Source: an uncultured Oscillospiraceae bacterium
Lineage (GTDB): Bacteria; Bacillota; Clostridia; Oscillospirales; Oscillospiraceae
Direction of reading: 5' to 3'
Length of the DNA: 35,671 nucleotides
Assembly: GCA_947629245.1 (NCBI GenBank)
Contig: CANRDC010000022.1
Span: 1 to 35,671 of the forward strand
Below the pieces are notes generated by a model. It saw only the letters and a program-made list of their open reading frames with translations. It was not told the origin of the DNA and searched no databases. Position 1 is the stretch's first letter. Every line of letters begins with the position of its first letter. Of this stretch, positions 24,210-33,174 are shown piece after piece. The translations under genes were made by a program, and so were the position numbers.

Positions 24210-24330
24210 TACTTACATAAGAATGACCGGGTGCCACGCGGCACACATTTTACACCGCAAAGGCGCACTGTTCGCTTTTCCTCAACTTTGGTTCAAGCTC
24301 TGCAAGATCATATCAACGAATCTCGGTAAT

Positions 24331-24487
24331 TTAACGGTAGCCGCCGACCCGAGCCTCGGTTTTCACCCCGAAAGCCCCTCTCAAAACCGCGCCATACAGG
24401 CAGCACGGCGGACAAAATGCAACGCGCCAGGGCGGAAAGCCTTGGCGCGTCGGCACAATATAACGATAACGCAGTCGATGCCATTGT
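24331..24487 (-). repeat. Right copy of the ~145-bp direct repeat, at the place of the tRNA-Met terminator
   Basis: Same orientation and order of blocks as 21958-22100. The hairpin arms differ by two compensatory pairs (22042:22070 is G-C, 24422:24450 is A-T; 22046:22066 is A-T, 24426:24446 is G-C), so the stem is under selection. It lies 22 bases from the tRNA-Met 3' end that formed the island's target and would be downstream of that tRNA. Confidence 0.85.
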
Positions 24488-24508
24488 ATCAAACTGCATT
24501 ACCAATTA

Positions 24509-24520
24509 TGGTGGCGGGAG
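24509..24520. repeat. Left attachment site of the integrated island
   Basis: TGGTGGCGGGAG is repeated exactly at 33114-33125. It equals the tRNA-Met 3' end (CCA plus acceptor strand) read on the other strand. Outside lies the repeat at 24331; inside, TATGTAC (24535-24541) is the mirror of GTACATA at 33103-33109, giving a partly symmetric attP when the ends are joined. Confidence 0.75.
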
Positions 24521-24570
24521 TACGCAATACATCGTATGTACAACGTTCAGCACGGTAAAGCAAGTAGCAT

Positions 24571-24601
24571 TATAAAGGGAGCGGGATTAGGTCCCGCTCC
24601 C
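24571..24601. terminator. Terminator at the island's left end, usable from both sides
   Basis: GGGAGCGGGA with TCCCGCTCCC, loop TTAGG. The leftward RNA continues TTTATAAT, closing the four-gene cluster. In the excised circle the integrase frame would stop at 24573-24575, two bases before the stem. Confidence 0.8.
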
Positions 24602-24608
24602 CGTGTGT

Positions 24609-24839
24609 TCACCTATACCGCAGGACCCGGATATAGGACCCCAGGCACATAGCCCCGACCACCACGGCCAGGCCGATGATGCACAACGCTATGACCCCCA
24701 GCCAGAACTTGTATTCAGCCGTCAGCGCGTTCGCTTTCTCCTGCCGTGTCAACCGGGCCGCTTTGAGAATCTTGTCCACATCATCCTCAGCGGTCACGAT
24801 GCTTTCAACCACATCCCGGAACTTCCGATCATCCGTCAT
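24609..24839 (-). CDS. Small single-helix membrane protein
   Basis: 76 residues: a charged N-terminal half (MTDDRKFRDVVESIVTAEDD, helical) and one membrane helix at about 46-70 ending in a basic tail, YIRVLRYR. Not recognised. Last of four leftward island genes. AAGG lies 7 bases before the ATG. A GC-rich hairpin (24859-24884) just upstream of the ribosome site may set its level. Confidence 0.7.
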   Translation of the reverse strand: MTDDRKFRDVVESIVTAEDDVDKILKAARLTRQEKANALTAEYKFWLGVIALCIIGLAVVVGAMCLGSYIRVLRYR

Positions 24840-24917
24840 GGGCTTTCCTTCTTTCTGGGCGGCTTCGCCAAAAGCCGCCCTATTATGTCCGGCAACCTGT
24901 TCACCCCTTATTGACGT

Positions 24918-25343
24918 TCACTTGTCCGGCGTCACCACCTTCTCTCCCAGCCGGTCTTTGATGATGACGGCGGCCTGTTCGTTTGTGAGGCTCATTATCT
25001 CGCTCCCGTTGCCGGGAAGTTTGAAGCGGTTCTTCTCCACAAAGATATTGGAGCGGGCTGTTTCTGCCCCGGATATGTAAGCGTCTACGCCACTATACCA
25101 ATCCTCGCCGACCGTCAAGCAATACTCCGTGATCGCGTTGTGCAGGATGTCACCGACAATATAAATCAGGTCCCCGATCATGATGGTGTCGCTTTTATCA
25201 ATGTCCTCCGGCTTGGCCTGGCCGAAATAGTTAAGCCATATGTCATTGAGCAGATTCTTGGCCCGCTCTATGTTGGTGAAGATGGTCCCGACCGCGCTGC
25301 CGATCGTAAGGCGTTCCTCTGCGGTGGTTTTGGCGATATACAT
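24918..25343 (-). CDS. Unknown helical protein, paralogue of its upstream neighbour
   Basis: 141 residues, soluble, mostly helical. Aligns with the protein at 25354: ERLTIGSAVGTIFTNIER with ERDLVEDSVGYMFDRFDR, and IGDLIYIVGDILHNAITEY with IGEQLLLISDSIFNIIREY. No motif of known function. AAGGAGG lies 5 bases before the ATG; spacing to the neighbour is 10 bases. Confidence 0.78.
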   Translation of the reverse strand: MYIAKTTAEERLTIGSAVGTIFTNIERAKNLLNDIWLNYFGQAKPEDIDKSDTIMIGDLIYIVGDILHNAITEYCLTVGEDWYSGVDAYISGAETARSNIFVEKNRFKLPGNGSEIMSLTNEQAAVIIKDRLGEKVVTPDK

Positions 25344-25353
25344 TGCTACCTCC

Positions 25354-25773
25354 TTAGTTCTCTCCCAGTATGGCTTTAAGCTCTCTGATCGCGTCTTTGT
25401 CCGACATATTGGATATGGCCTCTATAATGGCCTTGTCTGCGCGGTCGCCAACACGTTCCAGCATCTCGTCACACTCTATCGTCGCCATAGCCTGCCTTGC
25501 TCCATCCAGATACGGGCCGACGCCCCGAAAGTCCTTCCGGCCCACCATCAGGGCGTACTCACGGATGATGTTAAAGATACTGTCGCTGATAAGGAGAAGC
25601 TGCTCGCCTATGATCTCCGCCTCGTAGGGCGAAACAGGCTCCTTGCGGTTATCCGCGAAATTGTCCTCCCACAATACGCCAATGAGCGTATGCAGCCTGT
25701 CGAAACGGTCAAACATATATCCGACGGAATCTTCAACAAGGTCCCGCTCCGCAGATGTTAGCTTAGAAAACAT
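25354..25773 (-). CDS. Unknown helical protein, paralogue of its downstream neighbour
   Basis: 139 residues from the ATG at 25773 (MFSKLTSAERD), with AGGAGG 7 bases upstream. A longer frame to 25893 would read through a GGAGGGG/CCCCTCC hairpin and is unlikely. Same fold pattern as the gene at 24918, so the pair arose by duplication. Possible roles on a satellite are control of host or helper phage; nothing in the sequence proves this. Confidence 0.75.
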   Translation of the reverse strand: MFSKLTSAERDLVEDSVGYMFDRFDRLHTLIGVLWEDNFADNRKEPVSPYEAEIIGEQLLLISDSIFNIIREYALMVGRKDFRGVGPYLDGARQAMATIECDEMLERVGDRADKAIIEAISNMSDKDAIRELKAILGEN

Positions 25774-25889
25774 ACCTAATCCTCCTTGATTTTGTAGGAG
25801 GGGCCGTGCTATACTGTGCATGACCCCTCCGGGGTTCTCACCGGCCTCTTGTGTCAGCTTTTGCAGGGCGTAGACACAAGGGGCTTTCT

Positions 25890-26165
25890 TCATGCTATCG
25901 TGAAGCGCCGGGACACGCTCTCGCGGGTGTAGGCGGTGAACACGTCGGGGAGCGCGGCCTTGAGCGCCTTGCTGTCCAGGCGGCGGCTCACGATTTCTTT
26001 CCAGCGGATGATGAAGTTCCCGGTGTTGTGTTCATCCTCGCCCTTGCTCTCCAGATCGGCCTTGATCTCGGCCCGGATAGCTTCGGCCTGTTCCTCCAGC
26101 TCCTTCTGCTTGGCCTCGATGGCCTGGAGCTTCTTCACGCGGTTGTCGATCTGCTTGTTGGTCAT
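25890..26165 (-). CDS. Small phage-type coiled-coil protein
   Basis: 91 residues. The N-terminal half is a coiled coil (KKLQAIEAKQKELEEQAEAIRAEIKADLES); the C-terminal half GNFIIRWKEIVSRRLDSKALK is conserved in phage and mobile-element proteins I have seen, reminiscent of Gp157/Gam-like proteins, but I cannot confirm the family. First gene behind the leader and promoter at 26166-26427; AAGGAGG in front. Confidence 0.78.
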   Translation of the reverse strand: MTNKQIDNRVKKLQAIEAKQKELEEQAEAIRAEIKADLESKGEDEHNTGNFIIRWKEIVSRRLDSKALKAALPDVFTAYTRESVSRRFTIA

Positions 26166-26398
26166 GTTCTGTTCCTCCTTGTTATTTTTGGAAGCTCCCG
26201 GCGGCGGTGGGCGTTAAGTTTATCACTCGACTTCTGGAGAATTTCTTATCCCGTTCCGCTCTTATGTGGTATTCTTGGCTCGGCTGGCTTTTCACCGTAC
26301 CCGCTCCGCGCATATCCAGCAGTCGTAACCGCTAATACCGTTTGGATTGGGGCCTAATACATCTACCTTCGCGCTGGGGGCTTTCCTTTGATGGTCTT
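26166..26398 (-). ncRNA. Long conserved leader, candidate structured RNA
   Basis: About 230 untranslated bases between the leftward promoter and the gene at 25890. Its 5' part recurs after the promoter at 35551-35579: AAGACCATC directly after the -10, then GCGAAGGTAGA, AGGCCCC, and GCGGTkASRACTGCkGGA in the same order. Conservation across two loci without a reading frame points to an RNA or DNA signal. I cannot fold it reliably by eye. Confidence 0.5.
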
Positions 26399-26504
26399 AT
26401 TGTAGCATATCTAAGCTCATATATCAATTGGTAGACTATACAAATATCTAGGCTCATATTTGTGCATTATGTATCTAGACCTAGATTGATTTATGTGCTA
26501 TACT
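26399..26504. promoter_or_regulatory. Divergent promoters with three ribbon-helix-helix operator boxes
   Basis: Leftward: TTGATA (26422-26427), 17 bases, TACAAT (26399-26404). Rightward: -10 TATACT (26499-26504) with TAGACC as weak -35. Boxes: ATATCTAAGCTCATAT (26407-26422, in the leftward spacer), ATATCTAGGCTCATAT (26444-26459), and the palindrome ATCTAGACCTAGAT (26473-26486, over the rightward -35). The protein at 26565 likely binds all three and controls both directions. Confidence 0.75.
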
Positions 26505-26564
26505 ATGGCTATACTAGGGGAAGGGGATGCCATAAATCCCGGCCCCAGTAAGGGAGGGAATACT

Positions 26565-26762
26565 ATGCCGGTAAAGACGGAGGCTCAGAAAAAAGCTCAA
26601 AAGAAGTACATGGAACGGTTTGCAATCGCCAGAGTACGAATGCCCCTCGATAAATACGAAAGCGTACAGGCCCATGCAGAAGCCCACGGGGAAAGCGTCA
26701 GCGGCTTTATAAACCGGGCTGTGGATGAAACCATCAAACGTGAGGGAGGTGCTGCACAGTGA
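26565..26762 (+). CDS. Arc-type ribbon-helix-helix regulator of the toxin-antitoxin operon
   Basis: 65 residues from the ATG at 26565 (MPVKTEAQKK), with GGGAGGG 6 bases upstream. The strand ARVRMP and helices YESVQAHAEAHGESVSGFINRA are the fold's core. The second half is closely similar to the protein at 35222. The stop overlaps the next start in GTGA. Confidence 0.85.
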   Translation: MPVKTEAQKKAQKKYMERFAIARVRMPLDKYESVQAHAEAHGESVSGFINRAVDETIKREGGAAQ

Positions 26763-26980
26763 GCGATAAGGAACAGGCGGCGGCGCTGCTGGATAGGGTG
26801 CCGGCCTCCAAGCTGGGGTATGTGATCGCGTACCTCCAGGGCCTCACCGCAGACGAGGCGGAGGATGACACATATTGCGCCGGACTGTATCAGGACTATT
26901 TGAACGACGCGGACCCGCACAAACATGATACCGTCACGCTGGAGGCGCTGGCCGCTGATCTGGGGGTACAGCTCCCGTGA
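26759..26980 (+). CDS. Probable antitoxin of a RelE/ParE-type pair
   Basis: 73 residues, acidic, GTG start with GGAGG 9 bases upstream. PASKLGYVIAYLQGL and LYQDYLNDADPHKHD are features of small antitoxin-like proteins placed before RelE-type toxins. It has no clear DNA-binding domain, which fits with the separate regulator upstream. GTGA overlaps at both ends. Confidence 0.75.
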   Translation: MSDKEQAAALLDRVPASKLGYVIAYLQGLTADEAEDDTYCAGLYQDYLNDADPHKHDTVTLEALAADLGVQLP

Positions 26981-27225
26981 AGTATCAGATCGTCATTGAG
27001 AAGCGGGCGGAGAAGTTCATCCGCAAGCAGACAAAGGACAACCAGGTCCGGCTACTCACGGCGATATACAAGCTCCCATTCGTCGGAGATATAAAGCCGA
27101 TGGAGGGAACGCCTGGTAATTACCGGCTCCGTGTTGGAACATTCCGGGTGATCTATACGGTGGAGCATGAGATCGTCACCGTCCGGGTGCTGGACGCTGG
27201 CAACCGTGGGGACGTGTACAAGTGA
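26977..27225 (+). CDS. RelE/ParE-superfamily toxin
   Basis: 82 residues, basic, GTG start. RAEKFIRKQTKDNQVRLLTA, the GNYRLRVGTFRVIYTV core and the C-terminal VRVLDAGNRGDVYK are the family's standard pattern (basic residues that act on ribosome-bound mRNA in RelE). Last gene before a terminator. Confidence 0.9.
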   Translation: MKYQIVIEKRAEKFIRKQTKDNQVRLLTAIYKLPFVGDIKPMEGTPGNYRLRVGTFRVIYTVEHEIVTVRVLDAGNRGDVYK

Positions 27226-27232
27226 ATAGCAA

Positions 27233-27262
27233 AGCCGGGGATATGGGTCCCCGGCTCTTTAT
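27233..27262 (+). terminator. Terminator of the toxin-antitoxin operon
   Basis: AGCCGGGG with CCCCGGCT, eight-base loop, then CTTTAT, 8 bases after the toxin stop. Confidence 0.8.
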
Positions 27263-27325
27263 ATGCCTCTCTCACGCGTTTAACGGGCCTCTACGGGCTT
27301 TTGTGTCTTTGGGTATGTCTGTGTA

Positions 27326-27985
27326 TTACTCGCCGTCTACGGCTGCTGTGAACGCGGCTATTGTTTCCTGTGGGACGACTGTATGCTGCACTCCCCACTC
27401 GTCTTGCGTGACGCCCCAAGCAAAGTTACCCCATGTGGTCATGGCATGATCGGCGTCTTTGGGTAGCCTATTAAACCGTCCGGCTTCTCCCCGTAGAGTA
27501 CGCTCGATACTCTTTTCCATCTGGGATATATGGCCTAACACGTCCTCTGTTGTCATCGGTCCACTACGCTGCTTCAGTTTGGCATAGCCGTGATCTCGCG
27601 CCAATTCGTCCAGCTGGGACAAGGCCAGCGGGCACCCGGAAAGGGAATTTTCGGCCTGACGAATTTCCTCCAATGTCACATTCTTTCTCGACCTCAGCGC
27701 GGCGACGATTGCCGCCTGTTCCGGTGTCGGTGCTGTCAGTGTCCGGGCCTGTGCCTTTACCCTCATGTCTGCAAATATTGCTTTCATCCGCTTGTTTACC
27801 CGCTCGCGCTCTTTTGCAAGGGAGGCGTCCCGTGTAGCAGCTGCCTTGTCGGCCAGCTCTTTGCCGCCCGTGGACCCTTTGAAGCGGTCAGCGTATTTCA
27901 TAGCCTCGCCATATTCGGCGTTGATCTCGTCCACGGCTTGAAAATACCATCGTAAATTGTTATAAAATGCCTCTGTGTTTTTCAT
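27326..27985 (-). CDS. Unknown phage-type protein
   Basis: 219 residues, soluble, mainly helical, with a basic coiled segment (SLAKERERVNKRMKAIFADM). Not recognised. Its GGAGG is made by the last codons and stop of the gene at 27990, so the two are tightly coupled. Last gene of the leftward run. Confidence 0.75.
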   Translation of the reverse strand: MKNTEAFYNNLRWYFQAVDEINAEYGEAMKYADRFKGSTGGKELADKAAATRDASLAKERERVNKRMKAIFADMRVKAQARTLTAPTPEQAAIVAALRSRKNVTLEEIRQAENSLSGCPLALSQLDELARDHGYAKLKQRSGPMTTEDVLGHISQMEKSIERTLRGEAGRFNRLPKDADHAMTTWGNFAWGVTQDEWGVQHTVVPQETIAAFTAAVDGE

Positions 27986-27989
27986 GATT

Positions 27990-28643
27990 TTACCTCCAAT
28001 ATTCTTCTGGTATATTTATGCCAAACTTTTTACATAGCGAAACTGCGCCAAGCAGCTGCCGTCTTTCAAACTGGCGCTGGAATTGTTCCAGCTTTTTTAT
28101 GTGCTTTGAATAAACGTTCCAGTGCATCCATCGTGGCCGCTCCGGGATAGCATAAGGGAAATCTAACAGGTCCGGGTTCCATAGAATATCCAAATGCTGA
28201 TGTACATATTTCTTTCCTCGATCATAAGCGTCATATTCGCCTCGTGTCCGCTGGGATGATCTGTAATTGAGCTTTGCGCACTCCCGGCATCGAAAGCCCG
28301 CCTTTAAGTATAAATACCTCACCCGCCTACCACAGCATGGACAGATAAAAAATATTTGCCGCCCGCCGTAGCCATTACGCTTGCCGCTTAATAAGATGGT
28401 TTCATATAACCCATCTGGCCTGCGGTTGATCTCCGGTGACATTCTGGGTCCACCTGGCGGATAATACAGACGGACCCATTCACCATCACAGCGGAACTCA
28501 CGGACAGCATCTATTGTCTTTCTGCCGCAAAACATCAAGCCCCCGCTGTCTGGCAATTCAAAGCTGTCTATTCGGTTATGATCTTCCACCGCCTCATGGG
28601 TTTTGTTGTACCCCCCATTCGTTTGTGCATAGAAATATCTCAT
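27990..28643 (-). CDS. Zinc-ribbon protein of unknown function
   Basis: 217 residues. A CxxC pair C101/C104 (CPCCGRR) and C119/C122 (CREC) would hold one zinc. The stretch around it, with RYLYL and FRCREC.KLNYRSSQ, is like a conserved family found on phages and integrative elements. Binding to DNA or RNA is likely by fold type only. The ribosome site is weak. Confidence 0.72.
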   Translation of the reverse strand: MRYFYAQTNGGYNKTHEAVEDHNRIDSFELPDSGGLMFCGRKTIDAVREFRCDGEWVRLYYPPGGPRMSPEINRRPDGLYETILLSGKRNGYGGRQIFFICPCCGRRVRYLYLKAGFRCRECAKLNYRSSQRTRGEYDAYDRGKKYVHQHLDILWNPDLLDFPYAIPERPRWMHWNVYSKHIKKLEQFQRQFERRQLLGAVSLCKKFGINIPEEYWR

Positions 28644-28692
28644 AGTGATTTTTATGCCTAAATACTATACGAAACGCACTGTTCTTTTGCGT

Positions 28693-29034
28693 TCATATTA
28701 CGCTATTCTTGTTGCCGTCCATCCGCTCATATAGGGCTAGAAATGTGTCCAAGCTCATGCTTATGATCCACGGGCACCGGTTCGATCTATGTGCGACGAC
28801 CGGCAAGCCATCGTTGAATTTTTCTGCGTCAGCTGCCGATTGACGGAGGGCACCGTATAGGTCCAATTTTTCCCGCCTCTTGCACTCGATGTGGACACCG
28901 GCCGGACCTATAATGTCAGACGTTTTCCCATGATTGCATGGGTCCCCAGGGCGTACATCAAGGCCGCGCTCTTGGAGAATCCGGGCTAACTCTCGCTCGG
29001 CGTTTCTTCCTTTTCTAGCTGACATGCTCCCCAT
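28693..29034 (-). CDS. PD-(D/E)xK nuclease, Holliday-junction-resolvase-like
   Basis: 113 residues. KGRNAERELARIL gives Glu14; GKTSDIIG gives Asp40; HIECKR gives Glu50 and Lys52. This is the metal-binding pattern of Hjc-like resolvases used by phages to cut branched DNA. GGAGG lies 7 bases before the ATG at 29034. It overlaps the end of the upstream gene by 49 bases in another frame. Confidence 0.8.
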   Translation of the reverse strand: MGSMSARKGRNAERELARILQERGLDVRPGDPCNHGKTSDIIGPAGVHIECKRREKLDLYGALRQSAADAEKFNDGLPVVAHRSNRCPWIISMSLDTFLALYERMDGNKNSVI

Positions 29035-29384
29035 TTGTCCCCCTCCTTTCTCTCTCCGTCCTCAGCAAAGCGCCATTCTATGTCTATGCCGTCACAGAAT
29101 ATCGACAACAGCGCCACGCCGTCCCGGACCGCTCCGGCGTACTTTGGCGCTGTCGGTCCGTCTATCTTGTCAAAGGTCTCGGCCACGGCCTCTAGGTTGC
29201 ATATAACGTATCTGATAGTGTCGGACAAATCTATATAGTCAGAGAACACATGCAGCGCCTCCCGGATAGCGTCAGACATAGAATGTCCGGTCCTCTCCGT
29301 GTACCTGGTCAATGTGGCCTCCATATCGGCATCCAGCCTTATGGTCACTTTACGGGCATCCAGGCCCTCATACTTGCGTCCCAT
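28986..29384 (-). CDS. Ribbon-helix-helix-like protein with extra C-terminal domain
   Basis: 132 residues. The first 50 residues (KVTIRLDADMEATLTRYTER, HSMSDAIREAL) are a ribbon-helix-helix DNA-binding unit; the rest is helical and unknown, ending in an acidic tail. Start shared with the previous stop in TAATG. The tail overlaps the nuclease gene by 49 bases. Confidence 0.75.
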   Translation of the reverse strand: MGRKYEGLDARKVTIRLDADMEATLTRYTERTGHSMSDAIREALHVFSDYIDLSDTIRYVICNLEAVAETFDKIDGPTAPKYAGAVRDGVALLSIFCDGIDIEWRFAEDGERKEGDKWGACQLEKEETPSES

Positions 29385-29749
29385 TACATGCCTCTCCCAT
29401 TCAGTATCTCCCGATATCGCATGAAGCGCACCGCGCCGGAGAAAAAGTGATTTATGTTGTAGTCACACCCGGCCCGGTAGTTCGTCGCAAAATGCTGGGC
29501 TATGATCTGAGGGTATTCGTCTGCTTCTATATCTACCGTTCCCAGTTTGGCGCTCTCCGCCGTCAGATATGGCATGACCTCAATAATGCGCCGTATCTGC
29601 TCCCGTCTTAGTGGAGGATGGTTAAGGCCGGTTTCGTCCTGGTATGTGTTGAAATACTCGTTGAACACATATAGCACGTCCTGGATGGTATAGGGACCGC
29701 CTTTATATACCCTCTCAACGCTCTTAGAGAATGTGTCAAAATCCATCAT
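29384..29749 (-). CDS. Unknown small phage-type protein
   Basis: 121 residues from the ATG at 29749 (MMDFDTFSKSV); GAGGG lies 7 bases upstream. Acidic, with aromatic-rich helices (TIQDVLYVFNEYFNTY). Not recognised. First gene left of the iteron region. Confidence 0.7.
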   Translation of the reverse strand: MMDFDTFSKSVERVYKGGPYTIQDVLYVFNEYFNTYQDETGLNHPPLRREQIRRIIEVMPYLTAESAKLGTVDIEADEYPQIIAQHFATNYRAGCDYNINHFFSGAVRFMRYREILNGRGM

Positions 29750-29788
29750 AAAAACACCCTCAATAGGTAGCAAGCAGGACGCGCTTTA

Positions 29789-29802
29789 GCCCTTATAAGG
29801 GC
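29789..29802. other. 14-bp perfect palindrome at the iteron region
   Basis: GCCCTTATAAGGGC, followed at 29800-29825 by a very GC-rich hairpin-forming stretch with no T tract. Together with the AT-rich run after it this resembles an origin layout. Confidence 0.45.
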
Positions 29803-29873
29803 GCGGGCGCGCCGCCGCCCGCCCTTGTATGATTAAGGTTATTGCTAGCGTTATTGTTACAGCTTCAGCTTTT

Positions 29874-29982
29874 GGTTTAGGGTTTAGGGTTTATAGTTTG
29901 GTTTCAAGTGGGTTTCCACTGGGTTTCCACTGGGTTCCCACTCGTAACCCAGTGGGTTTCCAGTGGGTTCCCACTGGGTTTT
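29874..29982. repeat. Iterons: seven 11-bp repeats plus a TTTAGGG-type triplet; candidate replication origin
   Basis: Seven units of 11 bases start at 29906: AAGTGGGTTTC, CACTGGGTTTC, CACTGGGTTCC, CACTCGTAACC (diverged), CAGTGGGTTTC, CAGTGGGTTCC, CACTGGGTTTT. One helical turn per unit puts all sites on one face of DNA, as for initiator binding. GGTTTAG, GGTTTAG, GGTTTAT (29874-29894) lie just left. An AT-rich stretch at 29826-29860 could unwind. Confidence 0.65.
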
Positions 29983-30262
29983 ATTCTTTATGCTTTCTGG
30001 GGCGTCCACCTTTTGCGCCGTTGCCTCTGTTCCGAAGGACAGTCTCTGTGTACTTTTCATTGTTCCTGTCTATGTCGGCTCTCATGATATTAAACACTTG
30101 CTCTGCAATCCCGGTAATGCTATCTGGCATAACACCATATAGGTAATAGTTCACCGTTGACTTTATCGCTTTCGCCGCGTCCGGCTCCGGCATAAGCGAG
30201 AACATGATCGCTGCCTCTCTGTATGTCATGTACCCTGGTGCCTCGATTTTATCTTCCGTCAA
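29981..30262 (-). CDS. Small phage-type protein next to the iterons
   Basis: 93 residues if started at the TTG at 30262, which overlaps the previous stop (TTGA); an ATG at 30229 (MTYREAAIMF) is the alternative. MTYREAAIMFSLMPEPDAAKAI and a basic end GAKGGRPRKHKE suggest a DUF6291-like phage protein; I cannot confirm. Place and basic tail would fit a part in replication. Confidence 0.65.
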   Translation of the reverse strand: MTEDKIEAPGYMTYREAAIMFSLMPEPDAAKAIKSTVNYYLYGVMPDSITGIAEQVFNIMRADIDRNNEKYTETVLRNRGNGAKGGRPRKHKE

Positions 30263-30603
30263 CTCTCTAGACCCTCCGTCGCCCGTTCTAGCGCGTCCGC
30301 TGTCGCCGTGATCTCCCGCACTCTACTCCGCATGGACCGTATGAAAGCGTCAGCCTCGGCCCGTGTCTCGGCAAGATAATACCCGTGAATATTGTCGGAC
30401 ACGATCGGGATATACCTTCTGCGCTCTGCCTCGATCTGCTTGCGGACCGTTCGACCGTCAAGCCCGGTCCAGTTCACCAACTGCTGGAGGGTCACTGCTG
30501 CACCCTGGCCACGGCCAAGATAACCCTCGATCAGCCCTGTCCCAGCTGGCCGCAATTCTGCCCATAGTGACATCTGCCCAGCCCGCTCGGTGCCTTCACA
30601 CAT
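30259..30603 (-). CDS. Helix-turn-helix protein, possible replication initiator
   Basis: 114 residues. TLQQLVNWTGLDGRTVRKQIEAERR is a winged-helix-type reading segment, followed by IPIVSDNIHGYYLAE and a helical tail. Phage replisome organisers share this arrangement, so it is a candidate binder of the iterons. ATG at 30603 behind GGGGGT; overlaps both neighbours. Confidence 0.68.
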   Translation of the reverse strand: MCEGTERAGQMSLWAELRPAGTGLIEGYLGRGQGAAVTLQQLVNWTGLDGRTVRKQIEAERRRYIPIVSDNIHGYYLAETRAEADAFIRSMRSRVREITATADALERATEGLES

Positions 30604-30808
30604 TCGCTTCTACCCCCTTCTGCTGCCGATCAAATCGACCGGCGAAAATATGATCGTACTTCCCGTCCAAGATATCCCGGACAAGCTGTGCCTCCGGGCG
30701 GCCGGTCAAGGCTCTGCATAATTCGTCCCCTGGAGCGGGAGGCGGGGACCATGCCGCAAATCGAAAACGCCCTGTCGCGTCCTCGGCGTAATAGCTGTAG
30801 CTCTCCAC
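30596..30808 (-). CDS. Unknown small protein in the early operon
   Basis: 70 residues, GTG start with AGGAG 6 bases upstream. MESYSYYAEDATGRFRF..., no known motif. Lies 2 bases after the Cro-like gene and overlaps the next by 8, so it belongs to the same transcript. Confidence 0.6.
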   Translation of the reverse strand: MESYSYYAEDATGRFRFAAWSPPPAPGDELCRALTGRPEAQLVRDILDGKYDHIFAGRFDRQQKGVEANV

Positions 30809-30810
30809 CG

Positions 30811-31011
30811 TCAGCTCCTGCTATCGGCGATTTCCGAGACAGAGATTCCTAGCCCATGCGCCAACTTTCCAGCCGTCTTGGGCTCACATGTCCCCCGGGT
30901 CAAGATCGTCGATATGCTTTGCCTTGATACGCCAGCGGCCGCTGCATAAGCGGTCTTTGACATATTCCGGTCAGCAAGAATGGTTTCGATCTTCCGCGTA
31001 TCGATTCGCAA
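30811..31011 (-). CDS. Cro-like XRE regulator
   Basis: 66 residues, TTG start with GGAGG 8 bases upstream. Almost all of it is one XRE domain (MSKTAYAAAAGVSRQSISTIL). First gene of the leftward early operon, divergent from the repressor, as in lambdoid switches. Confidence 0.85.
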   Translation of the reverse strand: MRIDTRKIETILADRNMSKTAYAAAAGVSRQSISTILTRGTCEPKTAGKLAHGLGISVSEIADSRS

Positions 31012-31036
31012 AATACTCGCCTCCTATCAAAAAGTA

Positions 31037-31132
31037 CACATTTTCGGGTATTTTCATTGTAGCACTCACTTTCGGGTATGTCAACAGTTTTCAAGAAAAA
31101 TGTTTGCATTTTCGTGTACGCTGTGGTAATAT
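31037..31132. promoter_or_regulatory. Lysogeny-type switch: divergent promoters and three operators
   Basis: Leftward: TTGACA (31079-31084), 17 bases, TACAAT (31056-31061). Rightward: TTGCAT (31104-31109), 17 bases, TAATAT (31127-31132). The motif TTTCGGGTA recurs at 31042-31050 and 31070-31078 (in the leftward spacer), and TTTCGTGTA at 31110-31118 (in the rightward spacer). These are placed as operators for the CI-like and Cro-like proteins. Confidence 0.82.
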
Positions 31133-31158
31133 GAGTTTTGTATGAAGGGGGTGGAGAT

Positions 31159-31629
31159 ATGGCTCGCCAAAGTGTTGCCCGCTTTGTGTTTGCGAATATC
31201 GGTGCCCAGCTCAAGAAGCATCGGAAAGCTGCGCACATGACGCAGCGGCAAATGGCTAAAGCTCTTGGCATCCCGTATTCTACGTACTCAAATTATGAGA
31301 ATGATTACAGAATCCCGGATGCTGAAACGGTGAATAAGATATGCGAAATCCTCAATATCAGCATAGTCGATTTAATGGGGCGTTTTTCTGGGAAAATCGG
31401 TTTCGGAAACGGGGAAGATATGCCTAATCTACCGACGCCAGCAATCCCGTTTACTCCCGAGAATATCTTAAAAGCGAAAATAGAGGGAGAGCTTGTGTTT
31501 GCTTTTAGAAAACTTAATGATGAAGGAAAGAAAAGGGCGATGGAATATATTGATACACTGCTAGGAAATCCAAAGTTCGCGCAGGAATCGTCCACAGAGG
31601 ACACGTTAACCGCGCAGCATAACGAATAA
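31159..31629 (+). CDS. CI-like XRE repressor of the island
   Basis: 156 residues from the ATG at 31159. XRE domain at about 15-70 (RQMAKALGIPYSTYSNYEND), then a linker and a helical C-terminal part (ALEYID-type ending GKKRAMEYIDTLLG) common in element-borne repressors. No LexA-like Ser/Lys protease domain, so derepression would need an antirepressor or another signal rather than self-cleavage. Directly upstream of the integrase. Confidence 0.88.
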   Translation: MARQSVARFVFANIGAQLKKHRKAAHMTQRQMAKALGIPYSTYSNYENDYRIPDAETVNKICEILNISIVDLMGRFSGKIGFGNGEDMPNLPTPAIPFTPENILKAKIEGELVFAFRKLNDEGKKRAMEYIDTLLGNPKFAQESSTEDTLTAQHNE

Positions 31630-31633
31630 AAGC

Positions 31634-31658
31634 TCCCCCGGTTATTGGCCGAGGGAGC
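31634..31658 (+). terminator. Weak hairpin between repressor and integrase
   Basis: GCTCCCCCGG with CCGAGGGAGC (one mismatch), then GTTTGGG. The T tract is poor; partial termination could lower integrase relative to repressor. Confidence 0.45.
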
Positions 31659-31680
31659 GTTTGGGTAAGGGGGAAATTGT

Positions 31681-33135
31681 ATGAGGGCTGCCGCATATGC
31701 CCGGTATTCGACGGATCACCAGCAACACAACTCCATTGAGTATCAGCTTGCGTCTATCCGTGAATATTGTCGGACACATGATATAACTATTGTGGCGACG
31801 TTCGCTGATGAGGCGGAAACCGGCACCAATATGGACCGTGAAGGGTTCCGGCAGATGGTCGCCGCTGCCGGCCGGGGAGAGTTTGATTGCGTTGTGATCT
31901 ACGACGTGACCAGAGGGAGCCGTGACGTGGGGGACTGGTTCACCTTCCGCAAGGCCATGCTCATGCTGGGCGTCCAGGTCATAGCCACCACCCAAAGCCT
32001 GGGTGATATTACCAATGGCAACGACTTTCTCCTGGAGCTGATTTCTGTGGGCATGGGCCAGCGGGAGGTGCTGGAGACCCGGCAAAAGTCCATCAACGGC
32101 GTGGCCGTCAAAGCCAAACAGGGTGCTTTCCTGGGCGGCACTCCACCCCTGGGTTATGACATCATCAACGGGGCATATGTGGTCAATCCTACGGAGGCGC
32201 AGACCGTTCGGACCATCTTCACCATGTACGGGGACGGACATAGCTACAATGCCATTCTAAAGGCCGTAGACGGCGCGATAGGAAAGCGCGGCCGCCCCCT
32301 GGGAAAGAATAGTCTCCATTCGATCTTGACGAATGAACGCTATGTGGGGACGTACACATGGAACAAGCGCCGGGTGAAACTGTTCCGCAAGTGGGCCGGG
32401 GGATCGTTGAATCCGAATTGTGTCCGCCTGGAAGGGCACATCCCCGCCATCATCGACAATGAGACATGGGAGAGGGTGCAAAAGAGAATGAGCGACAACA
32501 AGCGAAACGCCGTCAACAAGGCAAAGAGGGCCTACCTGCTGTCCGGCCTGATAGAGTGCGAGGAATGCGGCGGAACTTATGTGGGCCATACTTCCACAAG
32601 CTCAAAAGGGCATGAAACACGGTATTATGTATGTGGCAACAAATACCGGACCCATACCTGCAAGGCAAAGAATATCAACGCCGACGAGCTGGAGGCATTT
32701 GTAGTACAGCACTTGAAAAATTACCTATTGCAGGCGGATTTTGAACAGGAGGCCCAGCGCATAGCGGCCCAGGTCAACGGGGCATCCCCGGACCTGACGG
32801 AAGAGCGCCGGGAGCTGGCCGACGTCACCGCAAAGCTCAATAATGGTCTAAAGGCCATTCTGGGCGGTATGGACTTCAAAGAGCTTCGGGACGAAATGGA
32901 CCGGCTGCGGGTCCGCAAGAGCGAACTGGAGGACATCATAGGCCGCCGCACGGCCAGCCGCCGCCAGGTGGACCCCCAAGACATCATCCGCGTGTTTGAG
33001 GATGCAGTTGACGCCTGGGACGATAACCTCCCGCAGATCATCAAGCAGCTGGTGACAAAGATATACGCCCACACCGACGGTACGGTTTCCGTCAATGTAG
33101 GCGTACATATAGTTGGTGGCGGGAGGAGGATTTGA
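31681..33135 (+). CDS. Large serine recombinase (integrase)
   Basis: 484 residues. Resolvase N-domain with catalytic Ser10 (YARYSTD) and RGSRDVGDWF; recombinase domain at about 155-280 (PLGYD, RYVGTYTWNK); zinc ribbon C293/C296/C318/C327; coiled coil at about 370-430. Catalyses insertion and, with a helper factor, excision. The last codons (VGGGRRI) lie in the tRNA-derived att site; joined to the left end of the island the frame would instead end VGGG-STQYIVCTTFSTVKQVAL, 15 residues longer. AAGGGGG lies 7 bases before the ATG. Confidence 0.95.
   Translation: MRAAAYARYSTDHQQHNSIEYQLASIREYCRTHDITIVATFADEAETGTNMDREGFRQMVAAAGRGEFDCVVIYDVTRGSRDVGDWFTFRKAMLMLGVQVIATTQSLGDITNGNDFLLELISVGMGQREVLETRQKSINGVAVKAKQGAFLGGTPPLGYDIINGAYVVNPTEAQTVRTIFTMYGDGHSYNAILKAVDGAIGKRGRPLGKNSLHSILTNERYVGTYTWNKRRVKLFRKWAGGSLNPNCVRLEGHIPAIIDNETWERVQKRMSDNKRNAVNKAKRAYLLSGLIECEECGGTYVGHTSTSSKGHETRYYVCGNKYRTHTCKAKNINADELEAFVVQHLKNYLLQADFEQEAQRIAAQVNGASPDLTEERRELADVTAKLNNGLKAILGGMDFKELRDEMDRLRVRKSELEDIIGRRTASRRQVDPQDIIRVFEDAVDAWDDNLPQIIKQLVTKIYAHTDGTVSVNVGVHIVGGGRRI
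33114..33125. repeat. Right attachment site of the island
   Basis: Second copy of TGGTGGCGGGAG, inside the integrase end and equal to the tRNA-Met 3' end including CCA. Because the core is kept on both sides, the tRNA 3' end to the right is whole after insertion. Confidence 0.75.
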
Positions 33136-33158
33136 ACCTCCGACCTCCGGGTTATGAG
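33114..33158 (-). tRNA. tRNA-Met 3' fragment (anticodon loop to CCA)
   Basis: Read leftward from 33158: anticodon loop CTCATAA with CAT, stem CCCGG, variable loop AGGTC, T arm GGAGG-TTCAAAT-CCTCC, acceptor strand TCCCGCC, then ACCA. Upstream of the loop the sequence stops matching a tRNA, so the 5' half is missing. This is what a tyrosine integrase leaves at the far end of an insertion. Confidence 0.85.
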
Positions 33159-33174
33159 TTGCCGAAGATTTTTC

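Follow-up and report, generated by a model that had tools for sequence, protein, structure and literature searches.

Can a site-specific recombinase rewrite the end of its own gene through the reaction it catalyzes? This question is raised by a large serine integrase gene (int) at the edge of an island of about 8.6 kb, within a 35,671-nucleotide stretch of DNA from an uncultured Oscillospiraceae bacterium (the window). To answer it, we read the integrase frame in the integrated and rejoined configurations, searched related genomes and viral contigs for natural counterparts of both, and compared the attachment (att) sites and the tails that they encode.

One integrase gene with two C-termini

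The att core, TGGTGGCGGGAG, is present at either end of the island (Table 1). As integrated, the 484-residue protein ends HIVGGGRRI and is closed by a TGA at 33133-33135. When the island ends are rejoined at the core, the frame proceeds from VGGG into STQYIVCTTFSTVKQVAL and stops at a TAA at 24573-24575, giving 481 + 18 = 499 residues. The attP of the window is a reconstruction from these two ends. An initial annotation of this DNA had placed the core in the last integrase codons, the integrated end at VGGGRRI (residue 484) and the end of the circle frame at residue 499. All three statements were reproduced, the last by joining the ends at the core.

The window integrase has the domain composition expected of large serine recombinases, with Pfam matches to Resolvase, Recombinase and zinc-ribbon (values of 6e-23, 9.2e-19 and 2.3e-17) and profile matches in PDB to 4kis, 6dnw, 9dxd and 9dxh. 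The serine recombinase domains lie upstream of the core in the integrated and rejoined forms alike.

The initial annotation did not name the tRNA-Met identity of the core. Read on the opposite strand, TGGTGGCGGGAG gives the acceptor stem and CCA of a tRNA 3' end. The integrase frame runs into the tRNA gene in antisense, where bases complementary to the tRNA-Met T-loop (TTCAAATCC) provide its TGA. The tRNA-Met of the window is itself broken at the anticodon loop (33158-33159), with its 5' half missing, and is whole in congeners. Genome G163 (L171) has its tRNA-Met interrupted at this base too. A tyrosine-integrase element whose far att copy lies here could account for the break.

Table 1. Coordinates of the integrase gene, att sites and neighboring features in the window.
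Feature	Position	Strand	Remarks
Island, ~8.6 kb	24509..33125		Core at either end
attL core TGGTGGCGGGAG	24509..24520	+	Island left end; flank and core beside intact tRNA-Met in five congeners
Circle-form tail codons past core (TQYIVCTTFSTVKQVAL; S codon begins in core) and TAA	24521..24575	+	Counterpart tails in attP-form contigs
Right attP arm motif TATGTAC	24535..24541	+	Mirrors left arm, ~16-22 bases from center
Hairpin, 25 nt, directly after circle-form stop	24577..24601		Without T-run on +; short T-run on -
Large serine integrase	31681..33135	+	ORF, 484 aa as integrated; Pfam Resolvase, Recombinase, Zn_ribbon_recom
Inverted repeat TACGCC...GGCGTA, 42 nt, int coding end	33064..33105	+	Right arm shared with attP
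Left attP arm motif GGCGTACATA	33100..33109	+	Written in Gly-Val-His codons
attR core TGGTGGCGGGAG	33114..33125	+	Within final integrase codons; crossover dinucleotide AG (33124-33125) inferred from symmetry
tRNA-Met 3' half, anticodon loop to CCA	33114..33158	-	Antisense source of TGA 33133-33135; intact tRNA-Met in relatives

Related integrase frames and tRNA 3' ends

Ten loci have a related integrase frame that overlaps the 3' end of an intact, ARAGORN-called tRNA-Met (L002, L003, L011, L013, L014, L022, L028, L036, L072 and L075); at L065 the tRNA-Met call wraps the contig end. The T-loop TGA closes the integrase in nine of the ten, and L036 stops at the anticodon in another frame. More distant frames end in or run into the ARAGORN-called 3' ends of tRNA-Gln (L051), tRNA-Ala (L052), tRNA-Ser (L054), tRNA-Leu (L059 and L069) and tRNA-Arg (L032, where the contig ends within the frame). 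The frame of L029, an integrase with an internal stop, ends in or runs into the 3' end of a called tmRNA. Five others (L047, L048, L049, L057 and L060) share its GGGEG-type end and appear tmRNA-like by eye.

Many integrase genes among the more distant homologues have no called tRNA at their end. One set of 15 distant loci comprised four that overlap an ARAGORN tRNA, five that are tmRNA-like, five that are neither and one at a contig end. In another 15, a called tRNA or tmRNA was overlapped by L028, L036, L032 and L029, L027 was a tandem junction, and the other ten had none called.

Free and integrated forms in relatives

An alignment-guided scan of viral contigs gave 33 loci, and the integrase 3' end was read in 24 of these (L085-L093 were omitted). 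Seven viral contigs carry the attP form, in which the core is followed by the attP right arm, without a tRNA (L063, L064, L068, L070, L071, L074 and L083). They have 15-21 codons from core start to stop, with tails such as GCGGPQLILCATFDNAMV and GCGGPQYTLCTIHS. The integrase of L063 is identical to that of the integrated G030 (L011/L016) at 1387 of 1400 bases before the core. As the two match up to the core and then part, they represent nearly one integrase in two natural forms. G138 (L012) also matches L063 at 1387 of 1400 bases, its contig stopping inside the core. A search of G030 and G138 for the left end of L063 (attL) gave no match, so the trio of free, attL and attR forms is incomplete.

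The initial annotation had taken the longer protein for the native one. The seven natural attP-form contigs, the L063/G030 pair and the constrained placement of the stop (see below) agree with it, and support the longer form as the native one. As far as sequence can tell, the C-terminal swap is real, and it is recurrent in this integrase group.

Locus L018 has the core and right arm of the window at its left end. The exact right-arm pattern gave no matches in viral contigs and was present in only the window and G291 among 400 family genomes. In the stretches examined, no attL was found for L065, L067, L069, L072, L073, L075 or L094. A second core was found for the distant locus L048 and not for L051, L054 or L047, where it was also sought. 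At L059 there was only a 10-base match, judged to be chance, and at L057 the motif was not located.

Tandem prophage arrays can mimic an attP-like junction. In G486 (C12:132696-208249; L039-L042, L061) two elements with different integrases of this group lie in tandem in one tRNA-Met, occupying 132696-166454 (~33.8 kb) and 166454-208249 (~41.8 kb), and the first integrase reads into the second element. The TATGT motif is missing from the right arm at this junction and present in all seven attP-form contigs. A similar tandem stack was seen in G945 at a tmRNA-like site.

attP arms written in integrase codons

We compared ten close attPs, of which seven were observed and three were reconstructed from two ends each (window, L018 and element 1 of G486). 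The ten share a center of symmetry, the dinucleotide at positions 13-14 of our numbering, which is AG in the window. Mirrored matches averaged 13.8 of 23 at this dinucleotide and 4.1-8.2 at 13 other centers. Single attPs had 10-16 of 23, with weaker symmetry in some, such as L083 (10) and L064 (11). The central dinucleotide is AG, GG or GA, and TATGT is invariant (10/10) and mirrored by the left arm. With the available text of PMC3783163 as a yardstick, these attPs are pseudo-palindromic, having an outer motif ~16-24 bp from a central non-palindromic dinucleotide. The same text assigns the zinc-ribbon motif of the A118 attP to half-site positions 16-24, which is where GTACATA/TATGTRC sits.

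On the integrase side, all 16 aligned sequences, the window among them, have the same codons GGC GTA CAT; for comparison, invariance in the body of int was seen at one of 164 conserved degenerate codons. Variation by codon position was 0.28/0.14/0.39 in the left coding arm and 0.48/0.32/0.45 in the right arm. A conserved tail peptide was rejected as a candidate: the codon-position pattern of the right arm is not coding-like, though placement of the stop is constrained.

The account that we favor, and consider probable, is a compact module of int, attP and target homology with a tolerated tail swap, the swap being a by-product of packing attP and int together. The last conserved codons (GVHI) would double as the left attP arm, the core would be the tRNA 3' end in antisense, and the right arm would encode a short native tail that ends at a stop supplied by the element. 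A single crossover at the core dinucleotide would then relocate the tail, together with its stop, to the opposite end of the island. The integrated integrase would be left with a stub ending at the TGA provided by the antisense T-loop of the tRNA. Under this arrangement the tail would be kept short by constraint and be free in sequence beyond the attP arm. We read both frames, the long native form of relatives, the symmetry of the arms and the adjacency of flank, core and tRNA directly from the sequences, and infer the recombination chemistry, expression and circle formation in this host.

Hairpins at both ends of the frame

An alternative places the consequence of integration in the RNA. Integration would part int from its native 3' end, the transcript would run antisense into the tRNA gene, and two hairpins, one before the core and one after the native stop, would set the fate of the mRNA. 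The ten loci in which a convergent int runs into an ARAGORN-called tRNA-Met fit this proposal, and both hairpins have features in its favor.

The segment around the hairpin after the circle-form stop (24570-24625) folds at -25.7 kcal/mol (z -3.68). Post-stop hairpins with z <= -2.5 were found in 6 of 14 attPs (L064, L068, L083, window, L078 and L020), with a T-rich stretch after the stem in L020. In other attPs, however, the post-stop hairpin is absent or weak, with z > 0 in L063, L071, G486 elements 1 and 2, and L048, and that of the window is without a T-run on the integrase strand. An int terminator at 24577 was also rejected as a candidate, there being no T-run on that strand and no entry in the terminator scan. 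The initial annotation had seen a fit between stop and terminator. The part of this that stands is a strong hairpin after the stop, which is real in several members; its role as an int terminator is putative.

The segment around the coding-end repeat (33055-33113) folds at -20.1 kcal/mol (z -3.43), and the TACGCC/GGCGTA arms are identical in 20 of 20 relatives. Covariation was scored on 18 of 20 rows (L094, equal to L067, was dropped, as was L046, whose sequence was from the opposite strand). In these, 94.8% of cells pair, 13 cells are changed on both sides and the covariation score is 0.149, values that 0 of 500 shuffles reached in each case. Two pairs change on both sides (reached by 417 of 500 shuffles) and there are five further pair types (reached by 500 of 500). 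The covariation of this putative hairpin is suggestive and speaks for an RNA-level effect, but the hairpin is retained in both states. The 42-nt repeat may act in the mRNA, as a hairpin, or in the DNA, as an additional inverted half-site for the integrase next to attP. On balance, we regard a switch acting through the mRNA as unlikely.

Length and ending of the native tail

In all ten close attPs an in-frame stop lies 15-22 codons past the core start, compared with 1-81 in the other two frames. For these ten, equally tight placement was reached by 0 of 1024 combinations of the other two frames and by 1 of 20000 shuffles; the corresponding figures were 0 of 64 and 24 of 20000 for six thinned attPs, and 0 of 16384 and 14 of 20000 for all 14, none of them being strict probabilities, as the attPs are related and kinship inflates the test. 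The set of 14 consists of the ten plus L078, L020, G486 element 2 and L048, whose attPs were all assembled from two ends. The int frame of L078 contains stops, and this locus was left out of the integrase alignment, with its att pair kept among the 14. Because placement of the stop is tight, unlike in the other frames, the tail is apparently translated and held to a short length, with a drifting end. Its bounded length shows that selection sees the tail and counts against reading the swap purely as a by-product.

Another alternative is that the tail controls direction. The long form would favor attP x attB and the short form would be less active or ease excision, such that the product alters its own enzyme. 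The constrained stop is compatible with this, as is the position of the tail after the C-terminal zinc-ribbon/coiled-coil region, which positions synapsis in the A118 (LI) integrase according to the portion of PMC3783163 at hand. Past the attP arm, however, the tail is unconserved, and we consider directional control unlikely.

The initial annotation instead proposed that the -VAL ending could act as a degradation tag. The free form would then be lost quickly and the integrated form persist, by analogy with the integration-dependent immunity of mycobacteriophages. The architecture does resemble the published repressor switch, where, in the accessible text, the stop falls at or near the host junction and attB is a tRNA in some phages (PMC8092301, PMC9934374, PMC4557955). 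The tail of L083 ends KAA, and the integrase genes of the more distant L079 and L080, which lie outside the set of 14 att-defined tails, end IAA and VAA. Against this, the last three residues of the 14 tails are AMV, MMR, IHS, KSA, YAP, IHS, KAA, VAL, ASC, KTA, RTK, LAG, ACA and HSQ, that is, 13 different endings with no degron in common. An ssrA-like C-terminal tag is not apparent, one tail of 14 ending in AA and the window in VAL. Since the tail ends are unconserved, with a single AA and VAL confined to the window, a conserved degradation tag is not supported, and a stability switch is highly unlikely.

The initial annotation had named a lack of any conserved tail in the circle forms of homologues as grounds for dropping its proposal, and on this point the outcome is mixed. 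About ten tail residues do recur in close relatives. These are the attP right arm in translation, which explains the recurring Q and VC/IC/LC, and the ends beyond them are unconserved.

Left flank and target site in congeners

In five congener loci (L155, L158, L160, L165 and L169) the left flank and core of the window continue directly into an intact tRNA-Met, and agreement with the joined flanks of the window is 56-59 of 62 bases. Five other loci with the same tRNA 3' end (L166, L167, L168, L170 and L171) have unrelated left flanks (24-27 of 62). The flank (24315-24520) is a dispersed repeat of ~200 bp. Among the ten repeat-bearing loci examined (L154-L161, L165 and L169), tRNA-Met follows in those five, tRNA-Tyr in L159, a decayed tRNA-Met-like sequence in L154 and L157, and other DNA in L161; the sequence of L156 ends at the repeat. 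The adjacency of flank, core and tRNA is thus natural, and because the flank is a dispersed repeat, orthology of the five loci with the window site is not proved. The family relatives (L018 and the attP-form contigs) are the stronger support for the core.

Could the core be a random 12-base match, with the island ending elsewhere? Such a match is weak when taken alone (about 0.24 expected by chance between two 2-kb ends, one found) and the left flank is a dispersed repeat, but the same core, arms and frame recur in L018, L063 and other relatives and flank, core and tRNA adjoin in five congeners, leaving practically no room for coincidence. Given this adjacency, the att symmetry and the shared core, arms and frame in relatives, the assignment of the core is secure. 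As a separate observation, the ~200-bp repeat directly abuts tRNA 3' ends in congeners and may itself home to them.

Relation to known systems

A close parallel is integration-dependent immunity in mycobacteriophages, described for BPs and relatives by Broussard et al. 2013 (as cited in later papers). In the accessible parts of these later accounts, attP lies within the repressor gene, the phage form is longer C-terminally, the prophage form is stopped at the host junction, and some sites are near tRNA genes (PMC4557955, PMC8092301, PMC9934374). The window would likewise have attP in a coding frame, with a product length that depends on state. The switched gene differs: it is an immunity repressor in the phages, which use a tyrosine integrase and in many cases an ssrA-like AA tag, and it is the serine integrase itself in the window, with no conserved tag. 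The published systems include cases without an AA tag, as far as PMC8092301 was available.

Archaeal suicidal (SSV-type) integrases also contain an att site that is altered by integration, and in the text available (PMC8371274) they are of the tyrosine family with a gene that is split. The window integrase is of the serine type and only its last residues change. The Ralstonia phage phiRSM1 shares with the window a serine recombinase and a core that is a reversed tRNA 3' end (13 nt, tRNA-Ser). Its attP lies between ORF14 (int) and ORF15, unlike the attP inside int of the window, and its enzyme is a small serine recombinase in that review, as accessible (PMC3816273). The large serine integrases of A118 (LI) and SPbeta (YokA) have the same domain order as the window integrase and belong with its profile matches (4kis, 6dnw, 9dxd and 9dxh); the available portions of their descriptions make no mention of an attP inside the int frame, unlike the window. 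Serine-recombinase integration into tRNA genes is rare according to the accessible text of PMC3218068. In the literature searched, which included few subscription papers and some sources in part, we recognized no description of an attP inside a serine integrase frame.

These integrases, in bacteria, have tRNA genes as their targets and change the end of the very gene that encodes them. Integrase, attP and the target-homologous stretch form one segment in which the same bases serve as codons and as recombination site, and the group thereby offers compact int-attP modules. Gene callers will assign one such gene two C-termini, which is a warning for annotation.

A functional switch arising from the tail swap is possible. 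More broadly, and only tentatively, tRNA- and tmRNA-targeting serine integrases, apparently of Clostridia, might form a class in which recombination rewrites the C-terminus of its own enzyme, with activity, direction or mRNA fate depending on whether the form is long (attP) or short (attL/attR). If true, the recombination product would feed back on its own recombinase without a separate repressor. The natural long/short pairs are material for testing C-terminal control of serine-integrase direction.

Other features of the island

An HTH gene (31138-31629) lies entirely within the island. We also noted a toxin-antitoxin-like set at 26493-27225, with small ORFs followed by a RelE/ParE-like toxin, a RusA-like resolvase match at 28693-29034, and a direct repeat of seven copies with 11-base spacing at 29896-29991.
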